From the NCBI GenBank assembly GCA_016839635.1, contig JAEOTV010000291.1, positions 1 through 27,316 on the forward strand: 27,316 bases of DNA. Reading direction: 5' to 3'. The position numbers and the translations under genes are program-made. A model generated the notes under the pieces. It was not told where the DNA came from. It ran no database searches and worked only from the letters and a program-made list of their open reading frames with translations. This DNA is from Promethearchaeota archaeon. GTDB taxonomy: Archaea; Asgardarchaeota; Lokiarchaeia; Sigynarchaeales; SOKP01. Of this stretch, positions 1 through 14,686 are shown piece by piece; within the stretch, counting starts at the first letter, position 1, and each line of letters starts with the position of its first letter.

Positions 1-565
1 CACCTCTTCCAGCATATCTACTAGGTAATCCTTCAGGATCAGCAAAACAAACCCCTGAATTACCTCCAAGAAGCTCAGCTGCTATTCCTACACCACATAT
101 CCCTGCTTTTTCACCAAATTCTTTACGAAGATCCTTATAAACACCATATAGTCCTTTACCAGACCATTTATTAGCATTTATGAATTCTCCACCATCCATA
201 GTCACTTTCAAGAGATAATAATCATCTCCTTCATGTTTACCTTCCACGATTATAGCACCTACACGCATCCTTGCTAGCATTTGAGCAAATGGGGTTCCTG
301 CATTAGCTTCTTTTATACCTCCTGTCAGAGGAGATTTTCCTCCTACAGAAAGTCTTCCACTTGAAGGTGCAGCTGTACCTGTGACTATCCCTGGAGCAAA
401 TACAAGCTTATTATGCGGTCCTAATGGATTACATGTTGGTGGTACTTCTTTATTTACTATTGTTGACGTCATCCCACGTCCACCTAAAGCAGCATAATCT
501 CCCGGGAGATCCTCATATTTAGCTTCAAGCTTATTCATATTTACTCTTAATATTCTTTTTGGCAA
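1..565 (-). CDS. Aldehyde:ferredoxin oxidoreductase, N-terminal part (cut by window edge)
   Basis: This is the first 188 codons of a tungstopterin-dependent aldehyde:ferredoxin oxidoreductase family enzyme, which oxidises aldehydes to carboxylic acids with ferredoxin as acceptor. The translation shows the AOR N-domain signature: LGGRGMTSTIV near residue 27, APGIVTGTAAPSSGRLSVGG, KSPLTGG, then MRVGAIIVEG and, at the cut end, PSRYAGRGG, the region that contacts the pterin in this family. The proposed start is TTG at 565, because a good Shine-Dalgarno (GAGGTGA) lies 5 nt upstream and the protein then begins LPKRILRVNM, as AOR proteins do. An internal ATG ten codons later would cut into the domain. 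The catalytic C-terminal half and the FeS cysteines lie outside the window, so the subfamily (AOR, FOR, GOR or WOR) cannot be decided. Confidence 0.93.
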   Translation of the reverse strand, partial: MPKRILRVNMNKLEAKYEDLPGDYAALGGRGMTSTIVNKEVPPTCNPLGPHNKLVFAPGIVTGTAAPSSGRLSVGGKSPLTGGIKEANAGTPFAQMLARMRVGAIIVEGKHEGDDYYLLKVTMDGGEFINANKWSGKGLYGVYKDLRKEFGEKAGICGVGIAAELLGGNSGVCFADPEGLPSRYAGRG

Positions 566-570
566 ATTTT

Positions 571-577
571 TCACCTC
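571..577 (-). promoter_or_regulatory. Shine-Dalgarno of the AOR gene
   Basis: GAGGTGA on the minus strand, 5 nt before the TTG codon at 565. It matches the archaeal anti-SD core well and decides the non-ATG start. Confidence 0.7.
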
Positions 578-752
578 TATTTTATTAGGCGAGTAATAAT
601 AGTATTTCTATGTTATTTAAACGGCTCGTTATGTACTAACTGATATAACGAAAAATTAACGTTTTAGAGAGCTTTCACAATATTGTAGGATTTTCAGCTG
701 AATAAAATTTTAGAAAATAATAGATTTAATAGATACCTAGTTTTATTACATT

Positions 753-1040
753 TTGAAAGATATGGACTACTCAAATAATCAAGTTACTAATAATTTATCA
801 TTTAAGATTATTCAGAGTGGAGACATAATAAAAATTGAACTATCTACAGTGAATTTGGGAAAAGAATTTCATGAGATATATGATTCAATATTGAAGGACT
901 TAAAGTTAAAACAAAAAGATACATACTTAAGTAATGAAGAGGGCAAAATGATAGGAGATCTTGACTTAAACTTAACGCTAGAAGAAATTATTAAAAAATT
1001 CGGCACCAAGTTAAAATTGTATTATGAAAAAGTTCTCTAA
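753..1040 (+). CDS. Small ubiquitin-like (beta-grasp) candidate protein
   Basis: A 95-residue hypothetical protein starting with TTG (ATG at 762 is an alternative, giving 92 residues). The residue pattern follows ubiquitin-like beta-grasp proteins: two N-terminal strands (LSFKIIQSG, DIIKIELSTV), a helix (EFHEIYDSILKDL), a strand with a turn (TYLSNEEGKMI), then DLDLNLTLEEIIKKFG and a last strand TKLKLYYEKVL. The C-terminal part resembles the D-x-x-(S/T)L-x-(D/E)-x-x-I ... L-x-L layout of ubiquitin. It has no C-terminal Gly-Gly, so if the fold is right it cannot be conjugated or thiocarboxylated as encoded. It is divergent from the AOR gene; MoaD-type beta-grasp proteins serve pterin cofactor synthesis, but a functional link here is speculative. 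The existence of the gene is likely; the fold is a pattern-level inference. Confidence 0.6.
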   Translation: MKDMDYSNNQVTNNLSFKIIQSGDIIKIELSTVNLGKEFHEIYDSILKDLKLKQKDTYLSNEEGKMIGDLDLNLTLEEIIKKFGTKLKLYYEKVL

Positions 1041-1059
1041 TTAACAGGATTCTATGTTT

Positions 1060-3006
1060 TCATTTAAAAATAGGGATGATAAGATGACTTGGATAATCTT
1101 TTGAGTGATAAATTTTTTGTTCAGCAACAAGGTATTCTTCTGGGTTACTTTCTCCTCCTAAATTAGAGTTTATATCAAATCTAGGAAAATTACTGGAAGT
1201 TATTTCTATTCTTATTCGGTGTTCCTTCCTAAAACATATTGATGTATTTCCCAGTTCAATTTCATATTTATATATTTTTTCGGGTTCAATAAGAGAAGGA
1301 TTACTATCACCATCTCGATATCTAGCCCGAATTCCTGCATCTAAAATGTTAAGCGCTTTTCCTCGAGGATAAACATCTACTAATTTAATCATAAAATCGG
1401 TGTCTTTAGCCGAGGAGGAAGCATATATCACCATCTTCACTGGACCTGTTATTTCTACTCCTTTCTCTAACGGTTTAGTTGTATACACTAATACATCTTT
1501 TCTTTTTGCAGCATCTTTTTGATTTTGAGCTCCCTTCAAAATAAGTAAATTCCTCCCACCTTTGGTAATAACAGGATCCATGGGATCAAAAGTATATATA
1601 TCTTCTATCTCATCAGAAGGTTCTTCAAAATTTAAGGTTCCATCTCCTTTTATACTATTTGCTTTTCCACCAGAGTGAATATATAATTTCTGAGATTTAA
1701 TATTTCTAGGTGGCCAGTCCTCGGTGTATCTCCATAAATTTTTTCCCGTTACCCAGTATTTAATAGAAGGCTTATTTATATCGGGAAATATATTTTTATC
1801 ATCCCATAGCCAATACTGATTCCATTTAAGATTTATAAATCCTTTGAAGAAACTTAGTAATCCAGCATTTTTAAGTTTGCTTTCAGGGTGACCTATCGCA
1901 GCATGAGCCCAGGGCCCTATTAGTATTCTTGAATATTTTCTTGCATCTCCAGTAGCTTTTTCCTTAATTTCAAAAAAATCTTTCATCTGTTTTTCAAGGA
2001 ACATATCCTGCCAACCAGCTAGCATGAAAACAGGTTGTGATAATTTAGATGTATTCATTTCTAAAAATCCAGACATCTTGTATGTATCCTTATCTAAACC
2101 TCGAGTAATCAAGAAATCATTTAAGAATTTAAAATACACGTTATAACTGCGTTTCGCTGGATCGAAATTCTTAACATTATAATACGCAATTAGAAGATCT
2201 TGAATTTCTTTAATACTTTTACCTTTTAACTGTGATAAGCTAATCCGACTCTTTTTTTTAATTGGGTCATTAAATAAAGCATATTTTGGATTTAAAAACC
2301 TCTCATACATTAACTTCGTCAATGTTTGTACTTGTGGAATTTCGCGGTGTGCCACAATATTAACCATTATTCTATATATAGAAGTCGTAAGAGCATGAAT
2401 TTGTAAGCCTCCATTATTTTTCCATAAATTCAAGGTCGATGTAACAGCTGGTGTTATGCATGTCAAGTATTTATTTTCCCAAGATAATGCGAGCTGAGTT
2501 ATCCCAAAATAACTTGCACCCACCATTCCTATTTTCCCATTGTACCAATATTGTTTAGAAATCCATTCTAAAGTTTCTAATCCATCTTCTCTTTCAGTAA
2601 ATAAATAATAATTGAAACCATTTGAATGACCTGTTCCTCGAATATCTTGTATTATTGTAACAAACCCATAAGAAGCATAACCATAACCAAGAAAACTGAA
2701 AATATCTTTCCAGTATGGTAATCTTACTAATATGGTTGGACATTTGCCATTTCGCCTGTATATATTTTTGGGGACATAGATGTCGGTAGCTAATTTTACA
2801 CCATCATTTAATCTGATAAAAGTTTCTGGATATCTTTTCACCCCATTTTTAGCATACCCCAACCCTAACAAACTTCCTAAAATCTTAGCTAAAGGGACGG
2901 ATCCGTATCTAACTATTTTTTTGATTAACTTCCATGCGAAATTCGGTAATTGGGGTCTTATTGGTACTTTTAAATATGATAAGCTTGTAACATGGTTTTC
3001 TCTCAT
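1060..3006 (-). CDS. CocE/NonD family alpha/beta hydrolase (X-Pro dipeptidyl-peptidase S15 type)
   Basis: A 648-residue hydrolase of the cocaine-esterase / S15 family, which cleaves esters, amides or X-Pro peptides. The catalytic triad is visible: Ser165 in MVGASYFG (nucleophile elbow), Asp334 in LAGWQDMF, and His368 in IGPWAHAA. Family signatures DGVKLATDIYVP (about 69-79) and QDIRGTGHSNG (oxyanion region, about 120-130) are present. The C-terminal third (about 440-648) corresponds to the jelly-roll domain of the family (VKMVIYASSSAKDTDFMIKL, HRIRIEITSSNFPRFDIN). Length is usual for the family. No signal peptide is apparent; residues 25-50 are mildly hydrophobic but contain charges, so it is probably cytoplasmic. 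The ATG start at 3006 leaves a 47-nt gap to the upstream tRNA gene. The physiological substrate cannot be told from sequence. Confidence 0.92.
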   Translation of the reverse strand: MRENHVTSLSYLKVPIRPQLPNFAWKLIKKIVRYGSVPLAKILGSLLGLGYAKNGVKRYPETFIRLNDGVKLATDIYVPKNIYRRNGKCPTILVRLPYWKDIFSFLGYGYASYGFVTIIQDIRGTGHSNGFNYYLFTEREDGLETLEWISKQYWYNGKIGMVGASYFGITQLALSWENKYLTCITPAVTSTLNLWKNNGGLQIHALTTSIYRIMVNIVAHREIPQVQTLTKLMYERFLNPKYALFNDPIKKKSRISLSQLKGKSIKEIQDLLIAYYNVKNFDPAKRSYNVYFKFLNDFLITRGLDKDTYKMSGFLEMNTSKLSQPVFMLAGWQDMFLEKQMKDFFEIKEKATGDARKYSRILIGPWAHAAIGHPESKLKNAGLLSFFKGFINLKWNQYWLWDDKNIFPDINKPSIKYWVTGKNLWRYTEDWPPRNIKSQKLYIHSGGKANSIKGDGTLNFEEPSDEIEDIYTFDPMDPVITKGGRNLLILKGAQNQKDAAKRKDVLVYTTKPLEKGVEITGPVKMVIYASSSAKDTDFMIKLVDVYPRGKALNILDAGIRARYRDGDSNPSLIEPEKIYKYEIELGNTSICFRKEHRIRIEITSSNFPRFDINSNLGGESNPEEYLVAEQKIYHSKDYPSHLIIPIFK

Positions 3007-3053
3007 TACTTTAAAAAGAATTTATTACCTTATAAAGTTTCAAAAATTAAAAA

Positions 3054-3161
3054 TGGCAGGCCCGAGGGGATATGTTCAAGAAATGCGAATGGCATATCAC
3101 ATTGAACCCCCGATCTTCAGCTTAGGAGGCTGCCGCCTTATCCAGTCTGGGCCACGGGCCT
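3054..3161 (-). tRNA. tRNA-Arg(CCT) with a T-loop intron
   Basis: The minus strand folds as a tRNA. The acceptor AGGCCCG pairs with CGGGCCT, followed by discriminator G and an encoded CCA (3054-3056). The anticodon loop is CTCCTAA, giving anticodon CCU (Arg); the anticodon stem GCAGC/GCTGA has one G27-A43 mismatch. The T-stem is GGGGG with CCCCT. The T-loop (plus 3070-3106) is 37 nt instead of 7, implying an insertion of about 30 nt. The mature tRNA would be 78 nt with a TTCAAAT-like T-loop. There is no intron in the anticodon loop. Confidence 0.88.
3072..3101 (-). other. Probable archaeal tRNA intron in the T-loop (about 30 nt)
   Basis: Within the expanded T-loop, GTTCAA (exon side) is complementary to TTGAAC (intron 3' side), and further in GATATGC can pair with GCATTTC with one T-T mismatch, closing a CATTC loop. 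Unpaired TGT and CATAT flank the central helix, giving a relaxed bulge-helix-bulge-like structure of the sort cut by the archaeal splicing endonuclease. Exact splice points may be shifted by 1-2 nt; the length of 30 nt follows from requiring a 7-nt T-loop. Confidence 0.68.
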
Positions 3162-3185
3162 ATTATTAATATCTTTCTATATAAT

Positions 3186-3194
3186 CATATAAAC
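3186..3194 (-). promoter_or_regulatory. TATA box of the tRNA-Arg gene
   Basis: GTTTATATG on the minus strand, centred about 29 nt upstream of the mature tRNA 5' end, the expected distance for an archaeal TATA box directing transcription start at or just before the tRNA. Confidence 0.5.
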
Positions 3195-3343
3195 ATACAA
3201 TAAAATAAAAAGTTAAATGAATATAATATAATTCTATTCCTTTTTCTCTCAATTTTCTATAGACATTTTTATCATTGTTTGTTAATTGAGTATGAAAGTA
3301 AGGGGAATGAAAAGGTTTTAATTGATGAGGTTTTTAATTGTAA

Positions 3344-3352
3344 TTATAAATA
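3344..3352 (+). promoter_or_regulatory. Putative TATA box of the Sm-like gene
   Basis: TTATAAATA about 40 nt before the ATG at 3391, allowing a transcription start about 15 nt before the start codon. It is the best A/T box at the right distance, but the whole region is AT-rich. Confidence 0.35.
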
Positions 3353-3390
3353 TTTTTTTATGAAAAATTTTTTTTTCGAGTTTTTAAAAG

Positions 3391-3651
3391 ATGGAAAGAC
3401 GATCTAATAGGCCTATTGATTATTTAAAATCATCAATTAATGAAATAATTCTCATTAAAGTGAAACGAAACCGATTATTCAGAGGACGCCTTGGCGGATT
3501 TGATGAACACCTTAATCTATATCTTGAAGAAACAAGTCAAATCTTCGAATATCAAGATGATGAAGGTAATATTCGTGAGGAACACGAAAACCTAGGGAGC
3601 ATAGTTGTACGGGGAGATAATGTAATATTCGTTAATCTTGCTCATTTATGA
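3391..3651 (+). CDS. Sm-like archaeal protein (LSm/SmAP)
   Basis: An 86-residue Sm-fold RNA-binding protein, expected to form a heptameric ring that binds U-rich RNA. Sm1 is visible as IILIKVKRNRLFRGRLGGFD with HLNLYLEE (about residues 20-47), including the conserved G and the D-x-x-x-N RNA-binding arrangement (DEHLN). Sm2 is seen as GSIVVRGDNVIFV (about 70-82), with the typical R-G-D/N core. Between them lies a short acidic insertion (YQDDEGNIREEHEN). Length is normal for archaeal SmAP. The start is ATG. In many archaea this gene is followed by the L37e ribosomal protein gene; here it is not, and a large phosphoesterase follows instead. Confidence 0.95.
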   Translation: MERRSNRPIDYLKSSINEIILIKVKRNRLFRGRLGGFDEHLNLYLEETSQIFEYQDDEGNIREEHENLGSIVVRGDNVIFVNLAHL

Positions 3652-3825
3652 GGGTTTGAAGCAGGATATCTCCTTTGTTGATGTTTAGTCATCTCTATAC
3701 ATATCATCATATCTAAAAAGGAAAGATGCAATTATCTTTTTAAATTGCGATTATTTTGTTAGTAATAATATAAATATTTGAAATATATGAAATAATTAGC
3801 TTTACTATTTGAGTGCCTTTAAAAA

Positions 3826-5880
3826 TTGAGTTCGATAGAAGAAGAAAATAAAGGAAGTTCAATTCTAATTAATCCAAATTTGGGACAGCCATTAATTTTA
3901 AAAATAGATCGCAAATTAAAAAAGAGAACATTTCAAACTCATTTACTTTTTGTTAGTGATAATTCTGATCCAGAGTTTTTTAAAAAGACAATTCAAAATC
4001 AAATAACACTTGTTCCTTTATTTGACTATAAATGGTCATATAAATTAATATTTGAAAAAAAAGAAAAAGGATTCTTTTCAAAATGGAGAGAAAGAAGACA
4101 AAAAAAAAAAAGAAAGAAATTTCTTGGAGACAAATTAAAAAATATAATAGAAGAAGACTTAGATTTAGACCAATTAAGAAAATTAAAATCTCGGCTTCAT
4201 AGAGGAGAACCAATTTTCCTTAAAGTAATTAGTGTAGAAAAATCTTCCGTAACTTCAATTCATGATTTATCTTATCTAAAAGATTTAAAACCTCAAGAAA
4301 TACTTGTAAAAAACCAAGTATTTGGAGAACTAAATCGATTCTATAAAGTAACGATTGAATTTAGAATTGGTAAAGATGTTATAAAATTTTTAAAGGAACG
4401 AAATTTTGTTATGTTTGACATTTGTTGCCCCAATAATCGAATAAATTATCATTCAGTAGTGGTTTCAAAACAAAAATGGCAAGATTTTACATTTGTTCAT
4501 GCTACGGATTTGCATTTAGCAGAGAGAAATGATAGGCTTTATGAAATTATTAAAAAATGGACTGAAACCTCAATTAAGGAGAATGTTGAAGATTTTTTTG
4601 AGATTGTAAGAAAAAAATTAAAAATTAAGAAGAACCAAGAAAATGAGGAAAGATTATTATCTGACATTAAAATTCCATTAAGAAAACGTTTAATTAATCC
4701 AAATAATCAATTTCGTAAATTCATAAAATTAATGAATAAGAAAGTCCTTAGAAATGAATTAGATTTTATTGTAATGACAGGAGATCTTGTTGATTATACG
4801 ATTTTAAGTAGATTAGCAAAAAAGCTCCGTAAATTGAATGAGTTTAGATATGAGGATAGTAATTGGCAAGTTTTTAAAAACATATTACTAAATATTGCAT
4901 CTCAAGAAAATTATAAAGGAGTTGTAAGAGGTGAGGAATTAAATTGTCCTATTTTTACGATACTAGGAAATCACGATTATCGTCCATTTCATTATGATTT
5001 AACGTGGGGAAACATGTATAATAAGATTGGTTTAAATGCTTCCGAGGCGGTAGCGTTAAATGAGTTATTTTCCGCATCTCCTATCACAGCTCTAACAAAA
5101 TCTTCATTAGCATTAAGGGGATATCTATCAGAAATAAATTCATCAAGAGATTTTTCTATAAAATTAGGCAACAATCTCCTTATATTTTTAAATACTGGCG
5201 GAGATTCCTTTAGAAACATTAGAGATTTATTGACAGGCCATCCTTCTGTTACAGGGATAACATATAAACAAATAAAATATTTAGAAAACCTTATTAATAA
5301 TGAAATTAATGAGCGTGTGAATACATTTTTATTTCTACATGGTCCTCCGTTAAATCCAGGAGGTGAAAAGCTAAGTATTAATATTTTTGAAAAAAAAGGG
5401 AGCAGATTTGTAAGATATAAGATTAATGACTTCAAAGAATCAGTAATAAAAAATTTAGGGAAAGCAATATCTAAAGCACGCATTGATAGAATTTTTAATA
5501 CCAAGCATGGCTGTGTTTCTTCAAATTGGGAAAAGTTAATGGAATTTTGTAAAAATTTCACAGTTCTAACGCTCTCCGGACATACACATACTAATCGGGA
5601 ATTTAGATTGGATGATCCTGGTGAATTTAAAACCAGTGTGTATGATGCTCCCCCATTTAGATTGAACAAAATTGAAAATCCTGCTGCGATTTTCTATGAT
5701 GACTATTCAGAGATATACGACAACCCAAAAGCTATAAGTGAGAATGGACCATTTGTCGTACAAACCCCTGCGTTAGGTTTAGGGAGTTATGGAAATTCAA
5801 AATCTGCGGGTGGGTATAGGGAAATATTAGTTAAAGATGGAGAATTAGCTTCTTTTAAAGTAAAATCTATTAACCGTTAA
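3826..5880 (+). CDS. Large calcineurin-like metallophosphoesterase with unassigned N-terminal domain
   Basis: A 684-residue protein of the calcineurin-like (metallophos) superfamily, which uses a two-metal centre to hydrolyse phosphoesters. The canonical motifs are in order: Asp228 and His230 (HATDLHLAE), Asp320 (MTGDLVDYT), Asn382-His383 (ILGNHDYRP), His505 (FLFLHGPPLN), and His586/His588 (LSGHTHTNREF). All metal ligands appear intact. Residues 1-220 form an upstream region that I do not recognise: mixed beta-strands plus a very basic segment around residues 78-99 (GFFSKWRERRQKKKRKK). About 80 residues separate the first two motifs, with charged helices (240-310). The start is TTG at 3826. 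No signal peptide or membrane helix is seen, so it is probably cytosolic. It converges with the longin-Arf GTPase with only 15 nt between stops. Substrate unknown. Confidence 0.9.
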   Translation: MSSIEEENKGSSILINPNLGQPLILKIDRKLKKRTFQTHLLFVSDNSDPEFFKKTIQNQITLVPLFDYKWSYKLIFEKKEKGFFSKWRERRQKKKRKKFLGDKLKNIIEEDLDLDQLRKLKSRLHRGEPIFLKVISVEKSSVTSIHDLSYLKDLKPQEILVKNQVFGELNRFYKVTIEFRIGKDVIKFLKERNFVMFDICCPNNRINYHSVVVSKQKWQDFTFVHATDLHLAERNDRLYEIIKKWTETSIKENVEDFFEIVRKKLKIKKNQENEERLLSDIKIPLRKRLINPNNQFRKFIKLMNKKVLRNELDFIVMTGDLVDYTILSRLAKKLRKLNEFRYEDSNWQVFKNILLNIASQENYKGVVRGEELNCPIFTILGNHDYRPFHYDLTWGNMYNKIGLNASEAVALNELFSASPITALTKSSLALRGYLSEINSSRDFSIKLGNNLLIFLNTGGDSFRNIRDLLTGHPSVTGITYKQIKYLENLINNEINERVNTFLFLHGPPLNPGGEKLSINIFEKKGSRFVRYKINDFKESVIKNLGKAISKARIDRIFNTKHGCVSSNWEKLMEFCKNFTVLTLSGHTHTNREFRLDDPGEFKTSVYDAPPFRLNKIENPAAIFYDDYSEIYDNPKAISENGPFVVQTPALGLGSYGNSKSAGGYREILVKDGELASFKVKSINR

Positions 5881-5895
5881 TAGATTAAGCTTATC

Positions 5896-7251
5896 TTAGG
5901 TTTTGACTTGCTTTAATACTTTTGAATAGTACTTTCGAATTGCACTGAGTTCTTTTGAGTTAAATATATCCATTTTATAATTTTTTAGAAAAGTACTAAA
6001 CTTTGGAAATTTATCGGGATTGGTTTTTGTTAAAAAGACACAATTAAGCGCGGTGAATAAAATACTTAACTTATCATAGTAAGCAAACGAGTTATTTCTT
6101 TCAAACTCACTATATAATTCATTATTCATTAACGCATTTCTAATAGGATTTTTAAGACTTTCTTGTACAATTTTCTTTTTCTTATGAATAGGTTGTTCCT
6201 CTTCAGGAGTTTTTGAAATTACATGATCTATTTTGTCTTGTATCTCATTGACTTCTAAAATTTCCTCTGCTTGAGTAGTGGTAATGCCAACTTGTTTATC
6301 TGTAATTATAAATGATTTATCTACGACAGGTTCTTCCTCAAGCCCAAACAAAGTTTCATAACTTAAGTCCGTGTTTTCAAATAATTCAGCTAATAATGGA
6401 TTATTTTCGGTACTCATATCTAATATATCTGCTATAACCCGAATCATCTTATTTCGATTTTCTTTTCTGTTCGCTACCATTGGATATGTTTTCAGACCAG
6501 TTATAGTTTCGATTTCTCCTACACTTAGAGCGTTAGGTAGGTCTTGTTTATTTCCTATGATAGCTGCTCTAGCATGTGGAACTTCTTTAACTTTTAAATC
6601 TAAAAAGAATTTACTTTTCTCAACATTTTTAATTGAAGAATCAGTAACTATGAGTACAGCATCACTTTCTTTTATAAATCCTTTCCAAAGGAATTTAAAT
6701 TGCTCTTGACCAGCAAAATCAAATAATCGGAAAAATAATTTCCCAATTTTAATAGTAGCGATCTCTCCTGTAATAGTCGGAACATGTTGAAGTGGAATTT
6801 CATCCATTTTTATTAGTTTTTTTATTGTTGTTTTTCCAACTCCTGCGAATCCTACTACCGCAATCTTAGGTTTAAGATTTCTATGCATTTCATCAAGCGC
6901 TACATTAATTGCTGTAAAATTTAAGTCTACAATCTTTTTTTCCTTTATCATATCTTTAAATCGGTTTAAGAATATATTCTTAAAATTACTTAATTGAGTC
7001 TTTATTGTTCTATAAAAATCATCAACTAATCCAGTTATAAAAATAAAAATTAAATTATCCTCTAGCTCAACATCGTAAGAAATTTTAAATTTAATAAAAT
7101 CAAAATATCCAGTTGTTCTCCCAAGTGCTCTTTTTGTTTCTGTAATAATTTTAAAACTAACATCCTCAATCTCAGAATCATCTAAGGCATTTCCATAAGA
7201 TCTTTTATAAATAATCTCGTTTCCTTTAAGAACAAATGCTTGCCGTAGCAT
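5896..7251 (-). CDS. Longin-like domain fused to an Arf-family small GTPase
   Basis: A 451-residue protein. Residues 1-120 have a longin-like pattern: an N-terminal beta hairpin (QAFVLKGNEIIYKRSY), a helix, strands FDFIKFKIS and LIFIFITGLV, then a long helix. The GTPase domain (about 128-278) has the G1 P-loop GFAGVGKTT (134-142), a switch I threonine in VPTITGE (157-163), G3 DFAGQEQF (178-185), G4 NKQD (234-237), and a plausible G5 around MVANRKEN. DxxGQ with the PTxG switch I is Arf/Sar-like. Residues 280-365 are acidic and probably disordered; 366-451 is helical and ends in a basic tail. There is no N-terminal myristoylation glycine. Longin domains bind GTPases and SNAREs in eukaryotic trafficking, and such GTPase fusions are typical of Asgard archaea. 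The role here is presumably regulatory; partners are unknown. Confidence 0.88.
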   Translation of the reverse strand: MLRQAFVLKGNEIIYKRSYGNALDDSEIEDVSFKIITETKRALGRTTGYFDFIKFKISYDVELEDNLIFIFITGLVDDFYRTIKTQLSNFKNIFLNRFKDMIKEKKIVDLNFTAINVALDEMHRNLKPKIAVVGFAGVGKTTIKKLIKMDEIPLQHVPTITGEIATIKIGKLFFRLFDFAGQEQFKFLWKGFIKESDAVLIVTDSSIKNVEKSKFFLDLKVKEVPHARAAIIGNKQDLPNALSVGEIETITGLKTYPMVANRKENRNKMIRVIADILDMSTENNPLLAELFENTDLSYETLFGLEEEPVVDKSFIITDKQVGITTTQAEEILEVNEIQDKIDHVISKTPEEEQPIHKKKKIVQESLKNPIRNALMNNELYSEFERNNSFAYYDKLSILFTALNCVFLTKTNPDKFPKFSTFLKNYKMDIFNSKELSAIRKYYSKVLKQVKT

Positions 7252-7302
7252 ATTACTTTATAACTTCTATTGATCAATAATAAGCATAGAACTTAGGTTT
7301 AA

Positions 7303-7317
7303 TATATAAAACAATTA
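7303..7317 (-). promoter_or_regulatory. Putative TATA box of the longin-Arf gene
   Basis: An A/T box reading TTTTATATATTAAA on the minus strand, about 55 nt before the ATG at 7251, fitting a transcription start near 7280. It is nearly symmetrical and so could also serve the plus strand. Confidence 0.35.
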
Positions 7318-7474
7318 TGTAGTAAAACAACATATATTTAAACTTCATGAAAAGGAAGAATTGATATGCATTGTATCAAACAAAGAAATGCCATCTCCAC
7401 AAATAATTTATTAAAATGGAAAGGATTATCTATCAGAAATTAAAAGAACTTAAACCTATCTCGAAGTGTGATTC

Positions 7475-8896
7475 TTGTACATTAAAAATAAATCTGAAAT
7501 CCTTAAACAAAAATTACCTAAAATTCAATTGAACTTAAGGCAAATTGGACTCCAAGCAATTTCAAAAGCAATCTCAGCGGTAAAACCCAAAAACTTAATG
7601 GAAAAATCAATTAGAGTACTTGAAAATAAATTGTTAATTCAAAATGATGAGTATGATCTACAAAAATTCAAGAAAATTTTCATTATTGGCGGTGGTAAGG
7701 CAACTGTTGAAATGGCATTGACATTTGAAAAAATTCTGTCAAATGCAAAGGATATCGATTATATGGGTATCATTAATGTACCTAAAGACCTTGAAAAACA
7801 GGATCTTTTCAAAAAAAGTAAAATCTCCATGAATTTTGCTTCTCATCCGATTCTTAATGAAATTGGGTATAAAGGAACTTTATCCATGATGGAAATTATA
7901 GAAGATTCAACTAAAAATGATCTTATTGTATGTTTAATATCCGGGGGAGGGTCTGCTTTACTTCCATTACCAAAAAAGGGTATCAAACTTGTAGATCTAC
8001 AAGAAATTAATTCTCTTCTTTTATCCTCAGGAGCATCAATTCACGAGATTAATACCATAAGAAAACATTTATCAGATTTTAAAGGTGGAAATTTAGCAAA
8101 AAAAATATATAATTCAAGTGGAGCTACATTAATTTCTTTAATTATTTCTGATGTTGTTGGAGATAATTTAGAGTCAATTGCATCTGGCCCTACTGTACCT
8201 GATAAAACAAATTTTAAAGATGCTTTTGAGATTTTAAAGAAATATGATCTTTTGGAAAAGACTCCTATTTCAATAAAAGAACATTTAGAAAAGGGATTAA
8301 CTGATAAATCTTTAGAAAATCCAAAACTAGATGATTTGTGTTTTGCAAATGTTTATAACTACTTAATTGGAAGTGTAAGCTCTGCTGCTCAAGAAGTTAA
8401 ACTTTTCTTAACAAATGAAGGATTTGAAGTCAAATATTTTTCTAATAATATAAGTGGTGAAGCAAAAGAATTTGGAAGAGGAATATATAATATTATTTCC
8501 AAATATGTTCAAGAAAATGTAGATCCAATCATGGACTTAAGAAAAGCATTAATTGGAACTGGTGAATTAACTGTTACTATCAGAGGTAAGGGAATTGGGG
8601 GAAGGAACCAAGAAATGTTGCTAAGTTTTCTAAAACATGTAAAAAGCAAAAAAATTGATTATAATTTTCTAATCATTAGTGTTAATCTGGATGGTATTGA
8701 GGGTAATAGTAAAGCGATGGGAGCATTAATTGACAATTCTGTAATTGAACAAGTCATTTCAAAAAATATGGATCCAGAGAAGTTCCTGTCCAATAATGAT
8801 TCAAATAGTTTCTTTAAAAAATTAGGTAATGAAATAATAAGTGGTCCAACCGGTTGTAATGTAAATGATTTAATACTGATTCTTATTTCAATATAA
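7475..8896 (+). CDS. Glycerate 2-kinase (GckA/MOFRL family)
   Basis: A 473-residue enzyme that phosphorylates D-glycerate to 2-phosphoglycerate, feeding into lower glycolysis; it is found in archaeal modified Entner-Doudoroff pathways and in serine or glycerate use. The N-terminal DUF4147 domain shows IIGGGKAT (about residue 71), LISGGGSALLPLP, NTIRKHLSDFKGG and DVVGDNLESIASGPTVPD. The C-terminal MOFRL domain shows GTGELTVTIRGKGIGGRNQE, NLDGIEGNSKAMGALID and ISGPTGCNVNDLILIL. All are classic signatures of the family and the length is normal. The start is TTG at 7475; no ATG precedes the first conserved segment. It stands alone, divergent from the longin-Arf gene, so no pathway operon is visible here. 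Confidence 0.95.
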   Translation: MYIKNKSEILKQKLPKIQLNLRQIGLQAISKAISAVKPKNLMEKSIRVLENKLLIQNDEYDLQKFKKIFIIGGGKATVEMALTFEKILSNAKDIDYMGIINVPKDLEKQDLFKKSKISMNFASHPILNEIGYKGTLSMMEIIEDSTKNDLIVCLISGGGSALLPLPKKGIKLVDLQEINSLLLSSGASIHEINTIRKHLSDFKGGNLAKKIYNSSGATLISLIISDVVGDNLESIASGPTVPDKTNFKDAFEILKKYDLLEKTPISIKEHLEKGLTDKSLENPKLDDLCFANVYNYLIGSVSSAAQEVKLFLTNEGFEVKYFSNNISGEAKEFGRGIYNIISKYVQENVDPIMDLRKALIGTGELTVTIRGKGIGGRNQEMLLSFLKHVKSKKIDYNFLIISVNLDGIEGNSKAMGALIDNSVIEQVISKNMDPEKFLSNNDSNSFFKKLGNEIISGPTGCNVNDLILILISI

Positions 8897-8932
8897 ATTT
8901 AAATAATTAAGTGTATACTAAAGTTAGCGAAG

Positions 8933-9091
8933 ATGACTGGAGTTATAATTTGCCCTTTGTGTGGTTTTAGTTTCAGGTACTCCAACTCTAAAACAGAAAA
9001 GGACAAAATTAAATGTCCTATGTGTGGTTTTGAATTTGGAAATCCTCAAATTTCTCCTTTTACTCCAAAAGATTTTAATAAGAAATTCTAG
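8933..9091 (+). CDS. 52-residue two-CPxCGF zinc-ribbon protein
   Basis: A very small gene with ATG at 8933 and TAG at 9089-9091. The product begins MTGVIICPLCGFSF and has a second knuckle IKCPMCGFEF about 20 residues later, so four cysteines (7, 10, 28, 31) form a treble-knuckle zinc ribbon. The tail (NPQISPFTPKDFNKKF) is polar. It lies 36 nt after the glycerate kinase stop on the same strand. No strong Shine-Dalgarno is seen. Such mini zinc ribbons in archaea are often nucleic-acid or protein-interaction modules; no specific role can be given. The paired CPxCG knuckles at the right spacing make a chance ORF unlikely. Confidence 0.75.
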   Translation: MTGVIICPLCGFSFRYSNSKTEKDKIKCPMCGFEFGNPQISPFTPKDFNKKF

Positions 9092-9288
9092 TGAATTTGA
9101 TTTCATAAATTAAATTTGAGTGAAGAAATTAGACTGAATTATAATTCGATAAAATCCTTTAACAAAATAATAATTTCTATATTGGTAAATTTTTTAAAGA
9201 TTGAAGTTGAAATTAGATCACCGATTAATTTTTATTAATTGATAAATAATTTTCAATTTAATACAAAACAAATTCATGGTAAAATACA

Positions 9289-11454
9289 ATGGCTAAAAAA
9301 GATAAGAAAAAAAAACCATCAGCGCGAACATCACGAATGGGCTATGATAAATCAGAAGCTGATGAAGAACTCGTAGCTGAAGCATTGAAACGAAAAGATA
9401 TGGATACGGGACGTGTTGAATTACTTGATAGAGATACTTCTACACCAGTTATAGAGACATATGATGAAGATACTGGAAAACTCGAGGGAAGTATCGTTTT
9501 AAAAGATCGTAATCGAGAAGGTTTACTAGCTTTAGTGAAAATAATTGAAACAGTAGATGTCGAACAGGATCATGATGCTAACATTAAATCATTTTCCCAT
9601 AGTGGCAAATTTAACATTGAAAATCCTAGTTCTGTTGATAGATTATGGGATATAGATGTTTCTCTAGAAAATATTGGAAGTACTGATTTGAAATCTAAGG
9701 ATATTTCAATAAGAGAATTAGGGACTGAATCACCAGATAATGTTGACTCAAGAGATTTTAAAATAACAAAGGATATAAAAAATTTATTGCTTGTTAAAGA
9801 ATTTATAAGTACTCTCCCTAATGCTGATGATGTTCTGAATATTAATGATATTGAAAAAGAGTTATTAAAATCAAAGGATAAAACGAGTGAAGTCTCTTCT
9901 AAACCACCATCAAAACCAAAATTTGATGAGGAAGAGGATGAGGATGAGGAAGAAGAGGAAGAGCTAGAAGCAGAAGGTGAAACTTGGGGTGATGGAGGTA
10001 CTCTTGTTGAAACGGGCTTAGAATCATTTGGAATCTCAATTGATAAAGATAATGCTGTAACTTTTGCTATAGCAATTAGAAGTTTGTTTGATAAACCAGT
10101 TACAAACATTAAAGTCGTTAAAAATATTCCTGATGATTATACGAACCCCGTAGTTACGGATACTACCGAAGGTAGGGCTGAAATTGAAGGTAATAAAATA
10201 ATATGGACAATTGATAAATTACCACCTGAATATACCATTATGTGTAAATTCAAATGCAATATTATGGTAACTGATATTGCTAAAAGAAGAACAGGATCAT
10301 TAGAAGTTACTTATCAGGCAGCATCTTCCTATGCTGAAGGATTAGCTATAGAAAAATTTGATGCTTATACAAGAAACAAATTTTATGTGGATACAGTTGA
10401 AAGGGATGAAGAACCGGGTATTTTTGATTGTAAGCTTGTATTTGATAATTCATCCGAATTTATCATACAACTTTTCAACGCAGATGTATATTCCCCAGAA
10501 GATGAAACAAAGAAATTTGTAGATATTGATCCCAATGACGTCCCAATGTTACCTAGTGGTGCACAATGGCATTCAACAAAATGGCAATATGAGAGCGATG
10601 AATATCCAACTTTTAGAAAGAAACTGGAGTTTAGAGTAATGCCAGATTTCCAAACAATTGTTAATGGAACTATGGCACTCTCGGATGTTATATTAGAGAT
10701 TGGTAGTATCTCTGGAGTAATGTCTTATAACTTAACTGAAGTTCCAACTTATCGAGCAAAAGATGTTATTGCTTCCATTAAAATGGTTAATAACGGTTCA
10801 GCGCCACTTGACGAGGTTACAATCATTCAGCAACACTTCTCTGATGAATACCAACCTCCAAAAGCAGATGAAATTAAATTAATGTGGGATGGTGAAGAAG
10901 TCGAGGTTTCTGCTGGAGCTGTAAGTTTCGAAGATAAAGTTTTCAAAATTGATCTCAGAGATTTGAAAGACAGCAGTACCGGTATGTTTAAACCAGACTC
11001 AGCCTTAGAGTTTGAATATCCTATTCACTGTGAAAACCCTGCACGCGAATCTACTTTTGAATCTGAAATAATATATCTCGCAAACACTTTTCCAGTAAGT
11101 CAAGAGTTAGAGTTCAAACCAGAGGTCCCAGTAATAGAAGCAATGCACATCAGAAGAAAGTTCAGAATTGGAAAAGAAGTAGTCCCTGTAGGAGATTTAG
11201 GCAATTACAGAATTATGCTAAGTCTTGAAAATATCGGAGAATCTAAATTACATAATCTGATTATTTTAGATAAAGTCCCAGATTCGTTCGAATATGGTTC
11301 TTATTCCATGACTCCAGAAATTACAGATGAAGTAGGGCAAGATACATTAAAGTGGGATATCGAACTTTTAGATGTGGGAGAAAAATTAGAAATCACTTAT
11401 GAAATAACAGGTACAGGAAAATATAGTCCATCTGATGCTCAATTAGCGCTTTAA
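9289..11454 (+). CDS. Acidic cytosolic protein with tandem beta-sandwich (DUF11/COG1361-like) domains
   Basis: A 721-residue protein starting at ATG with a lysine-rich tail (MAKKDKKKKPSARTS), not a signal peptide. It contains several beta-rich repeats with a shared motif of strand, N-(I/N)-G, then L-x-x-(I/V): WDIDVSLENIGSTDLKSKD (about 120-138), VTFAIAIRSLFDKPVTNIKV (257-276), VIASIKMVNNGSAPLDEV (493-510) and YRIMLSLENIGESKLHNL (640-657). Segments such as VPDSFEY and LKWDIELLDVGEKLEITYEI (about 663-707) are typical of DUF11/COG1361 beta-sandwich modules, normally found on secreted surface proteins. A run of almost pure Glu/Asp (213-230) splits the first domain from the rest. The gene is followed by an oligo-T terminator and then, 136 nt on, the beta-propeller gene in the same direction. 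Function unknown; a scaffold or coat-like role is speculation. Confidence 0.8.
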   Translation: MAKKDKKKKPSARTSRMGYDKSEADEELVAEALKRKDMDTGRVELLDRDTSTPVIETYDEDTGKLEGSIVLKDRNREGLLALVKIIETVDVEQDHDANIKSFSHSGKFNIENPSSVDRLWDIDVSLENIGSTDLKSKDISIRELGTESPDNVDSRDFKITKDIKNLLLVKEFISTLPNADDVLNINDIEKELLKSKDKTSEVSSKPPSKPKFDEEEDEDEEEEEELEAEGETWGDGGTLVETGLESFGISIDKDNAVTFAIAIRSLFDKPVTNIKVVKNIPDDYTNPVVTDTTEGRAEIEGNKIIWTIDKLPPEYTIMCKFKCNIMVTDIAKRRTGSLEVTYQAASSYAEGLAIEKFDAYTRNKFYVDTVERDEEPGIFDCKLVFDNSSEFIIQLFNADVYSPEDETKKFVDIDPNDVPMLPSGAQWHSTKWQYESDEYPTFRKKLEFRVMPDFQTIVNGTMALSDVILEIGSISGVMSYNLTEVPTYRAKDVIASIKMVNNGSAPLDEVTIIQQHFSDEYQPPKADEIKLMWDGEEVEVSAGAVSFEDKVFKIDLRDLKDSSTGMFKPDSALEFEYPIHCENPARESTFESEIIYLANTFPVSQELEFKPEVPVIEAMHIRRKFRIGKEVVPVGDLGNYRIMLSLENIGESKLHNLIILDKVPDSFEYGSYSMTPEITDEVGQDTLKWDIELLDVGEKLEITYEITGTGKYSPSDAQLAL

Positions 11455-11467
11455 TCTTAATAAAGCA

Positions 11468-11494
11468 TTTTTTATTTTTTTTATTTTTTATATT
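11468..11494 (+). terminator. Oligo-T terminator after the beta-sandwich gene
   Basis: Several T runs (T6, T8, T6) start 14 nt after the TAA stop, the typical form of archaeal intrinsic terminators on the coding strand. It suggests that the propeller gene downstream has its own promoter. Confidence 0.5.
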
Positions 11495-11590
11495 TACAAT
11501 AATAGTTTAATAACACCTTAAGGATAATTATTAAATGAATAAATAACGAAGTTTAATTTAATTACTACTTTTAATAAGTCTTGAGAAATA

Positions 11591-13276
11591 ATGTTAAGAA
11601 AACGTTATCAACTGAATTGGATGTTTGAATGTCCAGATGCGGTATTAACTTGCTCAGTTTTGAAATGTCGCGATAAAGAAGGTAATGACCGTAACTTTCT
11701 AGTTTTTGGGGGGCATGATAAAACTCTTTATTTGATGGACGAAGAGATGAACATTATTGATGATAGAGCATTTGATGGATGGTGTAGATGCAGTTATTCA
11801 ATAGATATTGACGGAAATGGATGCGATGAAATATTAGTAGGCGCTGGTGATGGTAATTTCATGGTTTTGAAATTAAATATCGAAAAGAAAAAACTCACAG
11901 GTTTAATGCGGTATAAGGCCTCAAAGAGGATTAATTGCTGCGTTGCTGGAGATTTCACGCGAGATGGGAATATTGAATTGATCTTTGGAAGTGATGATAA
12001 ATCTCTCAAAATTTTCGATGATATTAAAGCAAAAGACCCCAAATTTATGTTGTATTATGATTCTTGGGTCACAGCTTGCACATTAGGTTTCTTAAAATTA
12101 CCCGATAATGAGGATCCTATATTTGGACTATTAGTTGGCACAAAAAATGGATTAGTTCAATTAGTTCAATTTCAGGATAAGATGCTAGACATTATATGGC
12201 AGAATAATTTTTCCACTCAGATCAATGATATCAAAGTTGGAGATGTAACAAATGATGGATTAAATGAAATTCTACTAAGTACTGATGACTCTTTTATTAA
12301 AATCTTAAATAGTGAAGGAGAACCCATTAAGGAGATTAATACTGAAGAAGGGCGTCCAATTTCATTATTAATTGAAGATATCGATGGTGATAACGCAAAA
12401 GAAATTGTTGCAGGATGTGCAGATGGTTCTCTTAAAGTCTTTCATAATCCTACTTTAGATTCACAAGAATTCGAATTAAAATGGAAAACTAAAGTATCTA
12501 CATCTATTAAAAATGTTTGTTATCTCACTGGAGAAGATAAAAATGTTAAGCATATTGTATTTGGAGGGTATGATCGCAAGATTAGAAATGTCACTGATTT
12601 TGAATGGGGCCATAAAGAATCACTTATAATTCCTCAAAAAATTAAAATAGATGAAATAAAGGAGAGTAAAAAAACCGATTTAGTTAATGAAATTGCGAAA
12701 ATAAAGGATTTTCCAACAAATATAAGAGAACATATCTTCAAATTTCTACAGGAGCAGGGGTATTTAAAAGACTTAATGAATGAATTATCAAAATTAAGCT
12801 ATTCTGAGGACGAGATATTAGAAGAATTCGCACTTTTAAAGACACAGAAATCAGTTGTTTATGAGAAAATGACATACCCTGTATGGAGTTTACCTAGTGA
12901 AGAATTTGAGAAGGAAATGCCTGAGGAGGCTAAAGCTGAAATCTCCGTTGAAGAACAGCCAAAACCTAAGGTACAACCATTAGTTATTGAAGAATCTGTT
13001 ACACCTAAAAAAGAAAAATTACGAGCAGCTTTAGAAAGTGAACCTAAAACAAAAGTAGCCAAAGAAAAAGCAAGTGCGGGAGGATCACTGGGAGATATAA
13101 TTATTGCCTATTTAAAGGAGCAGACATTGGTCACAACAAAAGCACAATTCGTTAATGATATTAAAAATAAAGGTTTTTCTAATAGCCAGATTGAAAAAGA
13201 GATAAATGAATTGAAGGAACAAGGTAAAATTCAATATTCACGAGCTAAACCAAAAGGATGGAGTTTAGCTGAATAA
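11591..13276 (+). CDS. Cytosolic FG-GAP-type beta-propeller with two C-terminal winged-helix-like repeats
   Basis: A 561-residue protein, ATG start, no signal peptide. Residues 1-345 form a beta-propeller whose blades carry D-x-D-G-x-x-(D/E)-(I/L) loops as in FG-GAP/VCBS repeats: IDIDGNGCDEILVGAGDG (71-88), GDFTRDGNIELIFGSDDK (120-137), GDVTNDGLNEILLSTDD (217-233) and EDIDGDNAKEIVAGCADG (262-279), plus degenerate blades. Residues 380-434 and 503-560 are duplicates of each other: both run I-x-x-(F/Y)-L-x-EQ, then SxxxI-x-x-E-x-x-x-LK-x-Q/EQ, a Y, and end in WSL; this is a winged-helix pattern. A Glu/Lys/Pro-rich linker (435-495) joins them. No enzyme motif is seen. FG-GAP propellers are mostly extracellular, but eukaryotic ITFG2 is a cytosolic example acting in a Rag-GTPase regulator. 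It converges head-on with the longin-like gene, whose stop is directly adjacent. Confidence 0.82.
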   Translation: MLRKRYQLNWMFECPDAVLTCSVLKCRDKEGNDRNFLVFGGHDKTLYLMDEEMNIIDDRAFDGWCRCSYSIDIDGNGCDEILVGAGDGNFMVLKLNIEKKKLTGLMRYKASKRINCCVAGDFTRDGNIELIFGSDDKSLKIFDDIKAKDPKFMLYYDSWVTACTLGFLKLPDNEDPIFGLLVGTKNGLVQLVQFQDKMLDIIWQNNFSTQINDIKVGDVTNDGLNEILLSTDDSFIKILNSEGEPIKEINTEEGRPISLLIEDIDGDNAKEIVAGCADGSLKVFHNPTLDSQEFELKWKTKVSTSIKNVCYLTGEDKNVKHIVFGGYDRKIRNVTDFEWGHKESLIIPQKIKIDEIKESKKTDLVNEIAKIKDFPTNIREHIFKFLQEQGYLKDLMNELSKLSYSEDEILEEFALLKTQKSVVYEKMTYPVWSLPSEEFEKEMPEEAKAEISVEEQPKPKVQPLVIEESVTPKKEKLRAALESEPKTKVAKEKASAGGSLGDIIIAYLKEQTLVTTKAQFVNDIKNKGFSNSQIEKEINELKEQGKIQYSRAKPKGWSLAE

Positions 13277-13723
13277 TTATTCTTGAGTCTTCTTTATAAA
13301 AAATTCTTCTATTGTTTCTTGAAACGGCTCAAATTGATTTAATTCTGTGAAATCTTTTTTCTCATATTTTTGAATAAATAATTGTAGTACCGGTTCTACC
13401 CTTTCGAAAAATTTTCTAACAAGTTTATCTGATTTTTTTTTTGATTTATCAACTAATCCATATAAAATTATTGGTTCTTTAACACGATTATCTCCTGATT
13501 GGATTTCAGCTATCTTAAAGATAAACAAGATATTTCCTGATTCCAAATATTCCATTGAATTATTTTTAAATGCAGTATCAACAAATGTATTGATTGCCGA
13601 AATAAATGCTCCTCTAAGATCCTTATTTATACCACTTTCTTTTTGAGCTGGAATTTCTTTCATTATATGACTCACTAGGACAAATCCCCGAAATACAAAA
13701 CCTAATTCGTAAAGTTCCTTCAA
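13277..13723 (-). CDS. Free-standing longin-like domain protein (candidate)
   Basis: A 148-residue hypothetical protein with a TTG start at 13723; no in-frame ATG precedes the first predicted strand. The element order fits a longin/profilin-like fold: hairpin LGFVFRGFVLVSHIM, helix DLRGAFISAINTFVDTAF, strands SMEYLESGNILFIFKI and EPIILYGLVD, and a long helix KLVRKFFERVEPVLQLFIQKY. The same order and similar hydrophobic spacing are found in residues 1-105 of the longin-Arf GTPase at 5896-7251. No catalytic motif, signal peptide or membrane helix is visible. Its stop abuts the stop of the beta-propeller gene. If the fold is right, it would be a partner or regulator of a small GTPase; a Roadblock/LC7-type fold is the main alternative. 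Confidence 0.62.
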   Translation of the reverse strand: MKELYELGFVFRGFVLVSHIMKEIPAQKESGINKDLRGAFISAINTFVDTAFKNNSMEYLESGNILFIFKIAEIQSGDNRVKEPIILYGLVDKSKKKSDKLVRKFFERVEPVLQLFIQKYEKKDFTELNQFEPFQETIEEFFIKKTQE

Positions 13724-14064: not shown

Positions 14065-14307
14065 ATGAATGAAGCAGAGTCTCGTTTTTGCCCTTATTGT
14101 GGAATCGAGTTAGAACACCCGTACTGGGCTCATATCCAAGCAGAACATCCAGATAAATATACCCAAAAGGAAACTTGGATTAAATTATGGCAAGATTATC
14201 GAGGTTTAGGTATGGATGAAGAAACATCTTTAATGGTAATATCAGAACTATTCAATGCAACTCAAGAAGAAATCAAATCTTTCTTAGAAAATGCTAAAGC
14301 TCTATAA
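14065..14307 (+). CDS. Small C2H2-type zinc-finger protein
   Basis: An 80-residue protein with ATG start and AAGGTTAGGG upstream as a weak ribosome-binding site. The N-terminus carries a C-x2-C-x10-H-x4-H finger (Cys9, Cys12, His23, His28 in FCPYCGIELEHPYWAHIQAEHP). Residues 38-80 are helical (ETWIKLWQDYRGLG, ETSLMVISELFN, QEEIKSFLENAKAL) and could form a small three-helix bundle. No enzymatic feature is seen. It is probably a DNA-, RNA- or protein-binding factor, but there is no specific evidence. It converges with the acidic helical protein at 14390-14686. Confidence 0.75.
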   Translation: MNEAESRFCPYCGIELEHPYWAHIQAEHPDKYTQKETWIKLWQDYRGLGMDEETSLMVISELFNATQEEIKSFLENAKAL

Positions 14308-14389: not shown

Positions 14390-14686
14390 TTAAAATTCTT
14401 CTTCTTCAGCGTCTTCTTTTAAGAGTCCTGCCTGTTTTAGAATATCTTCAATACTATCACGAGCTTTAATAACTTGTTCATTCTCGTTTAACTTAAGTTT
14501 TTCAATAGCATCATCACTGAATTCCATTATTTTCTTAATGGCTTCAGAAGAAAAATCTTTAATTTTTTCAGAGGTTTCCTCGATGAAGTCTTTTCCAGAT
14601 TCACCAAAAACATTACCAAAGAAATCGGTAAAAGATTTATTCAGTTTTTCTATGAAGTTTTCTTTTTCTTCTCCTTCATCATTCAT
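14390..14686 (-). CDS. Small acidic, highly helical protein
   Basis: A 98-residue hypothetical protein with ATG start. The composition is Glu/Lys/Asp-rich with regularly spaced Phe, Ile and Leu. Its repeats of about 11 residues (FIEKLNKSFTDFFGNVFGE, FIEETSEKIKDFSSEA, IKKIMEFSDDAIEKLKL) suggest a long amphipathic helix, as in apolipoprotein-like or lipid- or protein-surface-binding helices. It ends in an acidic tail (EDAEEEEF). There is no signal peptide, transmembrane segment or cysteine. I do not recognise a family. Expression is plausible because start, length and composition are coherent, but the function is unknown. Confidence 0.6.
   Translation of the reverse strand: MNDEGEEKENFIEKLNKSFTDFFGNVFGESGKDFIEETSEKIKDFSSEAIKKIMEFSDDAIEKLKLNENEQVIKARDSIEDILKQAGLLKEDAEEEEF

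Follow-up and report, generated by a model that had tools for sequence, protein, structure and literature searches.

SAND and PROP, products of a linked gene pair in Lokiarchaeia, as a candidate adaptin-like complex

Results

A stretch of DNA of 27,316 nucleotides from a Promethearchaeota archaeon (contig JAEOTV010000291.1), analysed at its full length and here called the window, encodes side by side a protein of several beta-sandwiches (SAND) and a beta-propeller protein (PROP), and the linkage and co-occurrence of their genes in the class Lokiarchaeia (Promethearchaeia) were observed directly in the genomes surveyed, as were the relationships of their domains. The class belongs to the Asgard archaea, the archaea closest to eukaryotic cells. 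SAND appears to be a relative of mu-adaptin, which forms part of the adaptors of vesicle coats, and a probability of about 0.5 is given to the reading that SAND and PROP form, as two subunits, a single adaptin-like complex in the cytosol of Lokiarchaeia. SAND (9289..11454, + strand) is an adaptin-like multi-sandwich protein of 721 amino acids (aa), PROP (11591..13276, + strand) has 561 aa with an FG-GAP/WD-type propeller and winged-helix repeats, and both are core parts of the proposed complex. A sequence-only reading of the window had noted four unusual cytosolic proteins within 8 kb as possible parts of one complex, the other two being an Arf-like GTPase (LonArf; 5896..7251, - strand) and a longin-like protein of 148 aa (LON; 13277..13723, - strand, convergent with PROP). 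The observation was confirmed in part: all four are present in the open reading frame (ORF) list of the window and a hydrophobic stretch of the membrane type is absent from each of the four proteins (Kyte-Doolittle maxima over 19 residues, 1.05-1.25). SAND is probably located in the cytosol. Of the proposal as a whole, the conserved SAND-PROP pair stood and the coat idea gained support, while LonArf and LON did not hold as members.

Linkage of SAND and PROP across Asgard genomes

Close relatives of the region were found in 47 loci, all assigned to Lokiarchaeota or Lokiarchaeia, with PROP in 43, LON in 39 and the glycerate kinase in 39, counts that are uncorrected for contig ends. Some close protein relatives are labelled Hermod-, Heimdall-, Thor- or Hodarchaeota, which is taken here as loose naming. 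Since the entire region is syntenic in these close relatives, adjacency alone proves little, and the phylum was therefore searched with family profiles in 227 genomes, 83 of them from the class. PROP (profile A2, expectation value (E)<=1e-20) occurred in 55 of the 227 genomes, all within Lokiarchaeia, and SAND (profile A1, E<=1e-5) in at least 142, paralogs included; in 50 of the 55 PROP genomes SAND lay no more than 8 kb away. Of the 83 class genomes, 66 were positive with a wider PROP profile (A7) at E<=1e-20 and 60 at E<=1e-50. Co-occurrence in the class was strong: SAND and PROP were found together in 57 class genomes, SAND only in three, PROP only in three and neither in 20, and the two genes were adjacent in 53 of the 60 PROP genomes (A7, E<=1e-50). 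In several distant members the orientation of the pair has changed or another small gene stands between SAND and PROP, and the remaining window genes were not found beside the pair in those members. One of these distant members, genome G088, has a SAND with 95% identity to a protein labelled Candidatus Harpocratesius, class Promethearchaeia. The distribution of SAND and PROP is a pattern of functional linkage and not of a frozen chromosome, and neighbourhood conservation, the test that the sequence-only reading had chosen for itself, thereby came out in favour of these two proteins.

The neighbourhood table behind these counts was built from 74 of the listed SAND matches, all 56 PROP matches, the seven strongest LonArf matches and, of the 68 genomes with LON, one match for each of the 54 where it was strong; the 53 genomes with adjacent genes are those adjacent in this table plus G090, G091 and G093. 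Twenty regions were inspected individually, nine picked for a known PROP match, ten from the SAND list and one (G108) for PROP-LON; five of the ten SAND-list regions are within the class and three of the ten (L094, L095 and L097) have PROP in the stretch. These regions are not a random sample, and the class-wide co-occurrence and adjacency counts are less selected. The co-occurrence statistics ignore shared ancestry, and many of the genomes are probably incomplete.

Relationship of SAND to mu-adaptin

Whole-protein sequence profiles of the SAND family matched mu-adaptins and almost nothing else in the PDB. In a fold comparison of the SAND model, residues 76-466 (9514..10686, + strand) aligned with AP-2 mu2 over its mu-homology domain (about residues 166-435 of the chain), the model being of low predicted local distance difference test score (pLDDT) in that stretch. 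Within it, residues of about 246-360 (10024..10368, + strand) correspond, on the basis of relatives and family profiles, to subdomain B of the mu-homology domain and carry the motif 'GxA-x-y...ivWkI'. The curated cut-off of the mu-homology family PF00928 was passed by SAND relatives in 10 of the 227 genomes, L101 for example scoring 48.9 bits against 31.6 and matching positions 16-235 of 259. L101, L108 and L109 match across the positions of both subdomains in order, and 0 of the 14 control genomes were positive in the PF00928 check. Support for the coat idea was thus gained by a route which the sequence-only reading had not foreseen. The mu-like region also contains a long aspartate/glutamate run at residues of about 213-231 (9925-9981, + strand), which is variable among close relatives and absent from distant ones.

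Two further sandwiches follow. The first, residues 467-600 (10687..11088, + strand; pLDDT mostly 76-90), matches sandwiches of bacterial pilins and adhesins. The last, residues 608-721 (11110..11451, + strand), is a sandwich of the DUF11 family that weakly resembles the gamma-adaptin ear; intended as a negative control, it matched no mu chain in the PDB. Its best match was the gamma1-adaptin ear 1gyv (E 0.034), and six gamma1-adaptin ear chains and three Tie2 receptor chains were among its 11 matches at E<=10, so that the ear likeness is suggestive only. Ahead of the aligned region the window SAND has a lysine-rich tail followed by a helix, together some 75 residues, which is too short for a fused longin of the size of LON (148 aa); this holds for the window protein, and some relatives have longer N-terminal extensions. 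Because no N-terminal longin fits in front of the mu-like region, SAND was not filed as part of an adaptor protein (AP) complex.

The wider SAND superfamily (diverse profile A6, E<=1e-30) was found in at least 191 of the 227 genomes, and outside the class, among the matches listed, it is in many genomes one ORF of about 580-630 aa. Of four such forms checked with Pfam, two matched PF00928 (E 2.3e-8 and 8.5e-4) and two had no match at E<=0.01. Lokiarchaeal SAND is one branch of this wider Asgard family, having its own partner.

The surroundings of forms of about 590-595 aa were recorded separately. A gene of metallo-beta-lactamase fold (cluster 1) adjoins the form of about 595 aa in 12 of 20 loci (L117-L136), with ORFs of 231-267 aa, only 75 aa in L130, and a PF13483 match in L124. 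In L136 (genome G160) genes of the ubiquitin, E2 (UQ_con) and E1 (ThiF) families lie by Pfam a few kb from it, and gene clusters matching these are near the form in L123 (G079). Actin-family genes (PF00022) are near the form of about 590 aa in L120 (G069), and the same cluster occurs in L121 (G071) with shared gene order. L120 also carries, at 1-4571 (- strand), a family B DNA polymerase gene into which an intein bearing a LAGLIDADG domain is inserted.

Propeller and winged helices of PROP

Residues 1-340 of PROP (11591..12610, + strand) form a beta-propeller with BBS7, BBS2 and ITFG2 among its Pfam matches. The BBS7 propeller model PF23743 matched with E 1.1e-19 (71.3 bits against a cut-off of 27), PF14783 reached 38.7 against 27, and the Itfg2 model likewise passed with E 1.9e-7 (31.1 against 27). 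Ear or platform families were absent from the Pfam matches of PROP, and the chain ends instead in winged-helix-like repeats at residues 366-440 (12686..12910, + strand) and 489-561 (13055..13273, + strand), the second with the terminal motif YSRxxPxGW. Members of the family have one to four such repeats, counted by eye, with a YSRSxPRGW-like motif at the end of the repeats; the distant copy of L087 is without the repeats, and those of L081, L082 and L083 have a long N-terminal extension of coiled-coil appearance. The propeller is compatible with either BBS7 or ITFG2 ancestry, since both profiles pass and since other propellers of Asgard archaea are likewise hit by the BBS7 model, in 25 of the 227 genomes and in none of the 14 controls (E<=1e-8).

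LON and LonArf

The fold of LON (bb-a-bbb-a-a) is close to longins and of the sigma/mu-N type, as the longin-like label given to it earlier had anticipated; sequence searches with LON gave no identification. LON (E<=1e-6) occurred in 68 of the 227 genomes and adjoins PROP convergently in 45 of the 55 PROP genomes. The stretches of L137-L140 contain neither SAND nor PROP, and LON is found there beside the glycerate kinase, with a phosphoesterase nearby; G153 and G157 have SAND next to PROP and LON at another place. The stretch of L141 is likewise without the pair, and LON there adjoins relatives of two small window genes, an 80-aa zinc-ribbon-like protein (14065-14307, + strand; kept in 31 of 47 close loci) and a 98-aa acidic, helical-looking protein (14390-14686, - strand; kept in 29 of 47). 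Because LON stays put without the pair and lies elsewhere where the pair is intact, its position looks like inherited synteny, and its association with the pair is probably by synteny only.

LON and a small-GTPase gene of 334 aa are divergently arranged in L138-L140; in L137 the ORF divergent from LON is of that type too and has 131 aa. The genomes of L137-L140 are without SAND-PROP at E<=1e-50, and LON with this GTPase is a possible longin-GTPase pair. LON may serve a GTPase, and its tie to SAND-PROP is weak.

LonArf has its Arf-like GTPase domain at residues 123-259, between an N-terminal domain and a C-terminal tail that are both conserved. Its Arf membership is clear (PF00025 73.4 bits against 22.3; best PDB matches Arf1 and relatives; nucleotide-binding motifs by eye), and comparisons of its N-terminus with longins led nowhere. 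LonArf-like proteins (E<=1e-25) are present in at least 154 of 227 genomes, mostly as paralogs. A close ortholog was found in seven of the 227, among the matches listed, each time beside the SAND-PROP pair, and among the 47 close loci LonArf occurred in eight, one merely a weak match of 29% identity. With its close ortholog found in those seven genomes, LonArf is regarded as a local neighbour outside the conserved unit, and for this protein the neighbourhood test failed.

Other genes of the window

A glycerate-kinase-like enzyme (7475..8896, + strand; Pfam DUF4147 and MOFRL) sits between LonArf and SAND, as had been read from the sequence, and is a syntenic neighbour and not a part of the proposed complex. 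Rfam and tRNA scans of the window gave nothing. No Vps4 or ESCRT-III (endosomal sorting complex required for transport) gene was recognised among the 17 of 22 window genes scanned with Pfam, the other five being of 147 aa, of 222 aa and, by eye, catalase-peroxidase-, Fur- and cold-shock-like.

Discussion

Several observations weigh against an adaptin-like SAND-PROP complex. PROP was found in no genome outside the class (A2, E<=1e-20; 227 genomes), and SAND-like proteins (A1, E 5e-94 to 2e-104) occur without PROP, among the matches listed, in five out-of-class genomes (G056, G057, G060, G062 and G063); the pair is therefore not Asgard-wide. The window SAND alone has no PF00928 match, four of 25 close relatives have one, and the close-family profile A1 found no mu-adaptin in the PDB, only one unrelated match. 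Among the control C-terminal sandwiches one of 15 members touches PF00928 (E 0.047). The matched mu-like stretch stops before the C-terminal strands, which in mu-homology domains carry much of the cargo pocket. The SAND model is weak (mean pLDDT 56.5), and in the fold search integrin, pilin or adhesin sandwiches outrank mu2, integrin legs and bacterial adhesins being the first Foldseek matches. The generic sandwich family DUF11 spans the same stretch, matches 25 of 25 close relatives (E<=1) and 19 of 20 diverse ones (E<=1e-3), and outscores PF00928 in 14 of the 15 relatives scanned. These last features would suit a SAND that is a scaffold in the cytosol, built from generic Ig-like sandwiches (DUF11/NEW3) with a convergent likeness to mu; the pair would then have nothing to do with membranes and would serve as a scaffold of a structural or enzymatic kind. 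This alternative is somewhat unlikely, given the selection of mu-adaptins by the whole-protein profiles, the ordered matches to both mu subdomains in three relatives and the clean control genomes.

A different role would follow if PROP were an ITFG2/KICSTOR-like regulator which, together with SAND, governs a GTPase of the Rag or Arf kind in signalling on nutrients or energy, as the sequence-only reading had also considered. The best PDB matches of the PROP family profile are indeed ITFG2 chains of KICSTOR (E 7e-8), and to the Itfg2 match of the window protein is added one of E 2.4e-16 in L087; however, the BBS7 model outscores Itfg2 in five of six members scanned (L087 is the exception), so that FG-GAP similarity cannot choose ITFG2 over BBS7, and no GTPase gene linked to the pair across lineages was seen in the neighbourhoods inspected. 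Such a regulator is accordingly held to be improbable. Least probable of all, and very unlikely, is one GTPase-controlled coat of all four proteins as originally proposed. The four lie within 8 kb in the window, all occur together in 7/7 loci with a LonArf ortholog, where LonArf is beside SAND in each of the seven genomes, and LON has the longin fold of the sigma/mu-N type; but the rarity of LonArf and the independence of LON from the pair led to rejection of the four-gene assembly, and the two-protein core was kept.

Compared with known systems, SAND resembles AP-2 mu and AP-3 mu of the clathrin adaptor complexes in mu-homology profile and fold, in being probably cytosolic and in having a longin-fold protein, LON, encoded nearby. 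It differs in that the longin is unfused and that two sandwiches follow the mu-like region, and no large solenoid subunit was recognised among the window genes scanned, a search that did not extend to adaptin N-terminal repeats in whole genomes. Eme et al. 2023 (PMC10307638) describe the Mu C-terminal Pfam domain in Asgard genomes unfused to other AP domains, and the SAND family is alike in the kind of Pfam domain, the archaeal group and the lack of fusion. AP/COPI domains are there called sparsely distributed in Asgards, whereas profile A6 places the superfamily in at least 191 genomes; the word 'propeller' occurs 0 times in the main text of that paper. The Halo_adaptin ESCRT systems of haloarchaea (PMC10936438) also bring together a propeller, duplicated winged helices and a number of adaptin-like domains of Ig-like type, but in them the adaptin-like proteins carry the propeller at their N-terminus, whereas SAND and PROP are separate genes, and those systems are defined on a Vps4 tree, a gene not recognised in the window scan.

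BBS7 and BBS2 combine a propeller with a gamma-adaptin-ear domain and platform and helical domains. The top Pfam match of PROP is the BBS7 propeller and an ear-like sandwich is encoded next door in SAND, but the domains are here on two proteins and the winged helices of PROP replace the platform and helical domains. The BBSome is recruited by the Arf-like GTPase ARL6, according to PMC7311171. PROP shares with ITFG2 the FG-GAP propeller and differs from it by the winged-helix repeats. Asgard longin-GTPase fusions have been described, and MK-D1 does not, as a rule, have its small GTPase genes in operons together with those for longins (both from PMC10933270). No earlier report of the SAND-PROP pair was found in the literature covered, which was partial and excluded bioRxiv preprints and most subscription papers.

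In the proposed adaptin-like complex, SAND and PROP would bind each other physically and act as an adaptor. Mu subunits bind client tails, and by analogy the mu-like domain of SAND would grip tails of membrane or other clients, while its sandwiches would recruit accessory proteins. PROP would be the scaffold and its winged helices might join subunits, as winged helices do in ESCRT-II. Recruitment to the membrane would be controlled by an Arf- or Rab-like GTPase, and neither LON nor LonArf would be an obligate subunit.

In the study of eukaryogenesis the origin of vesicle coats is still an open question. A relative of mu-adaptin, probably cytosolic, is present in at least 191 of 227 Asgard genomes and is in one class tied genetically to a propeller protein. 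As a tentative and speculative extension, this near-universal Asgard family might be the ancestral mu-homology/ear protein behind eukaryotic mu, delta-COP and related adaptor domains, which in Lokiarchaeia would pair with a BBS/COPI-like propeller as a working pre-eukaryotic coat adaptor. Where scattered single-domain matches were the earlier material, SAND-PROP is a concrete candidate two-protein complex for experiment.

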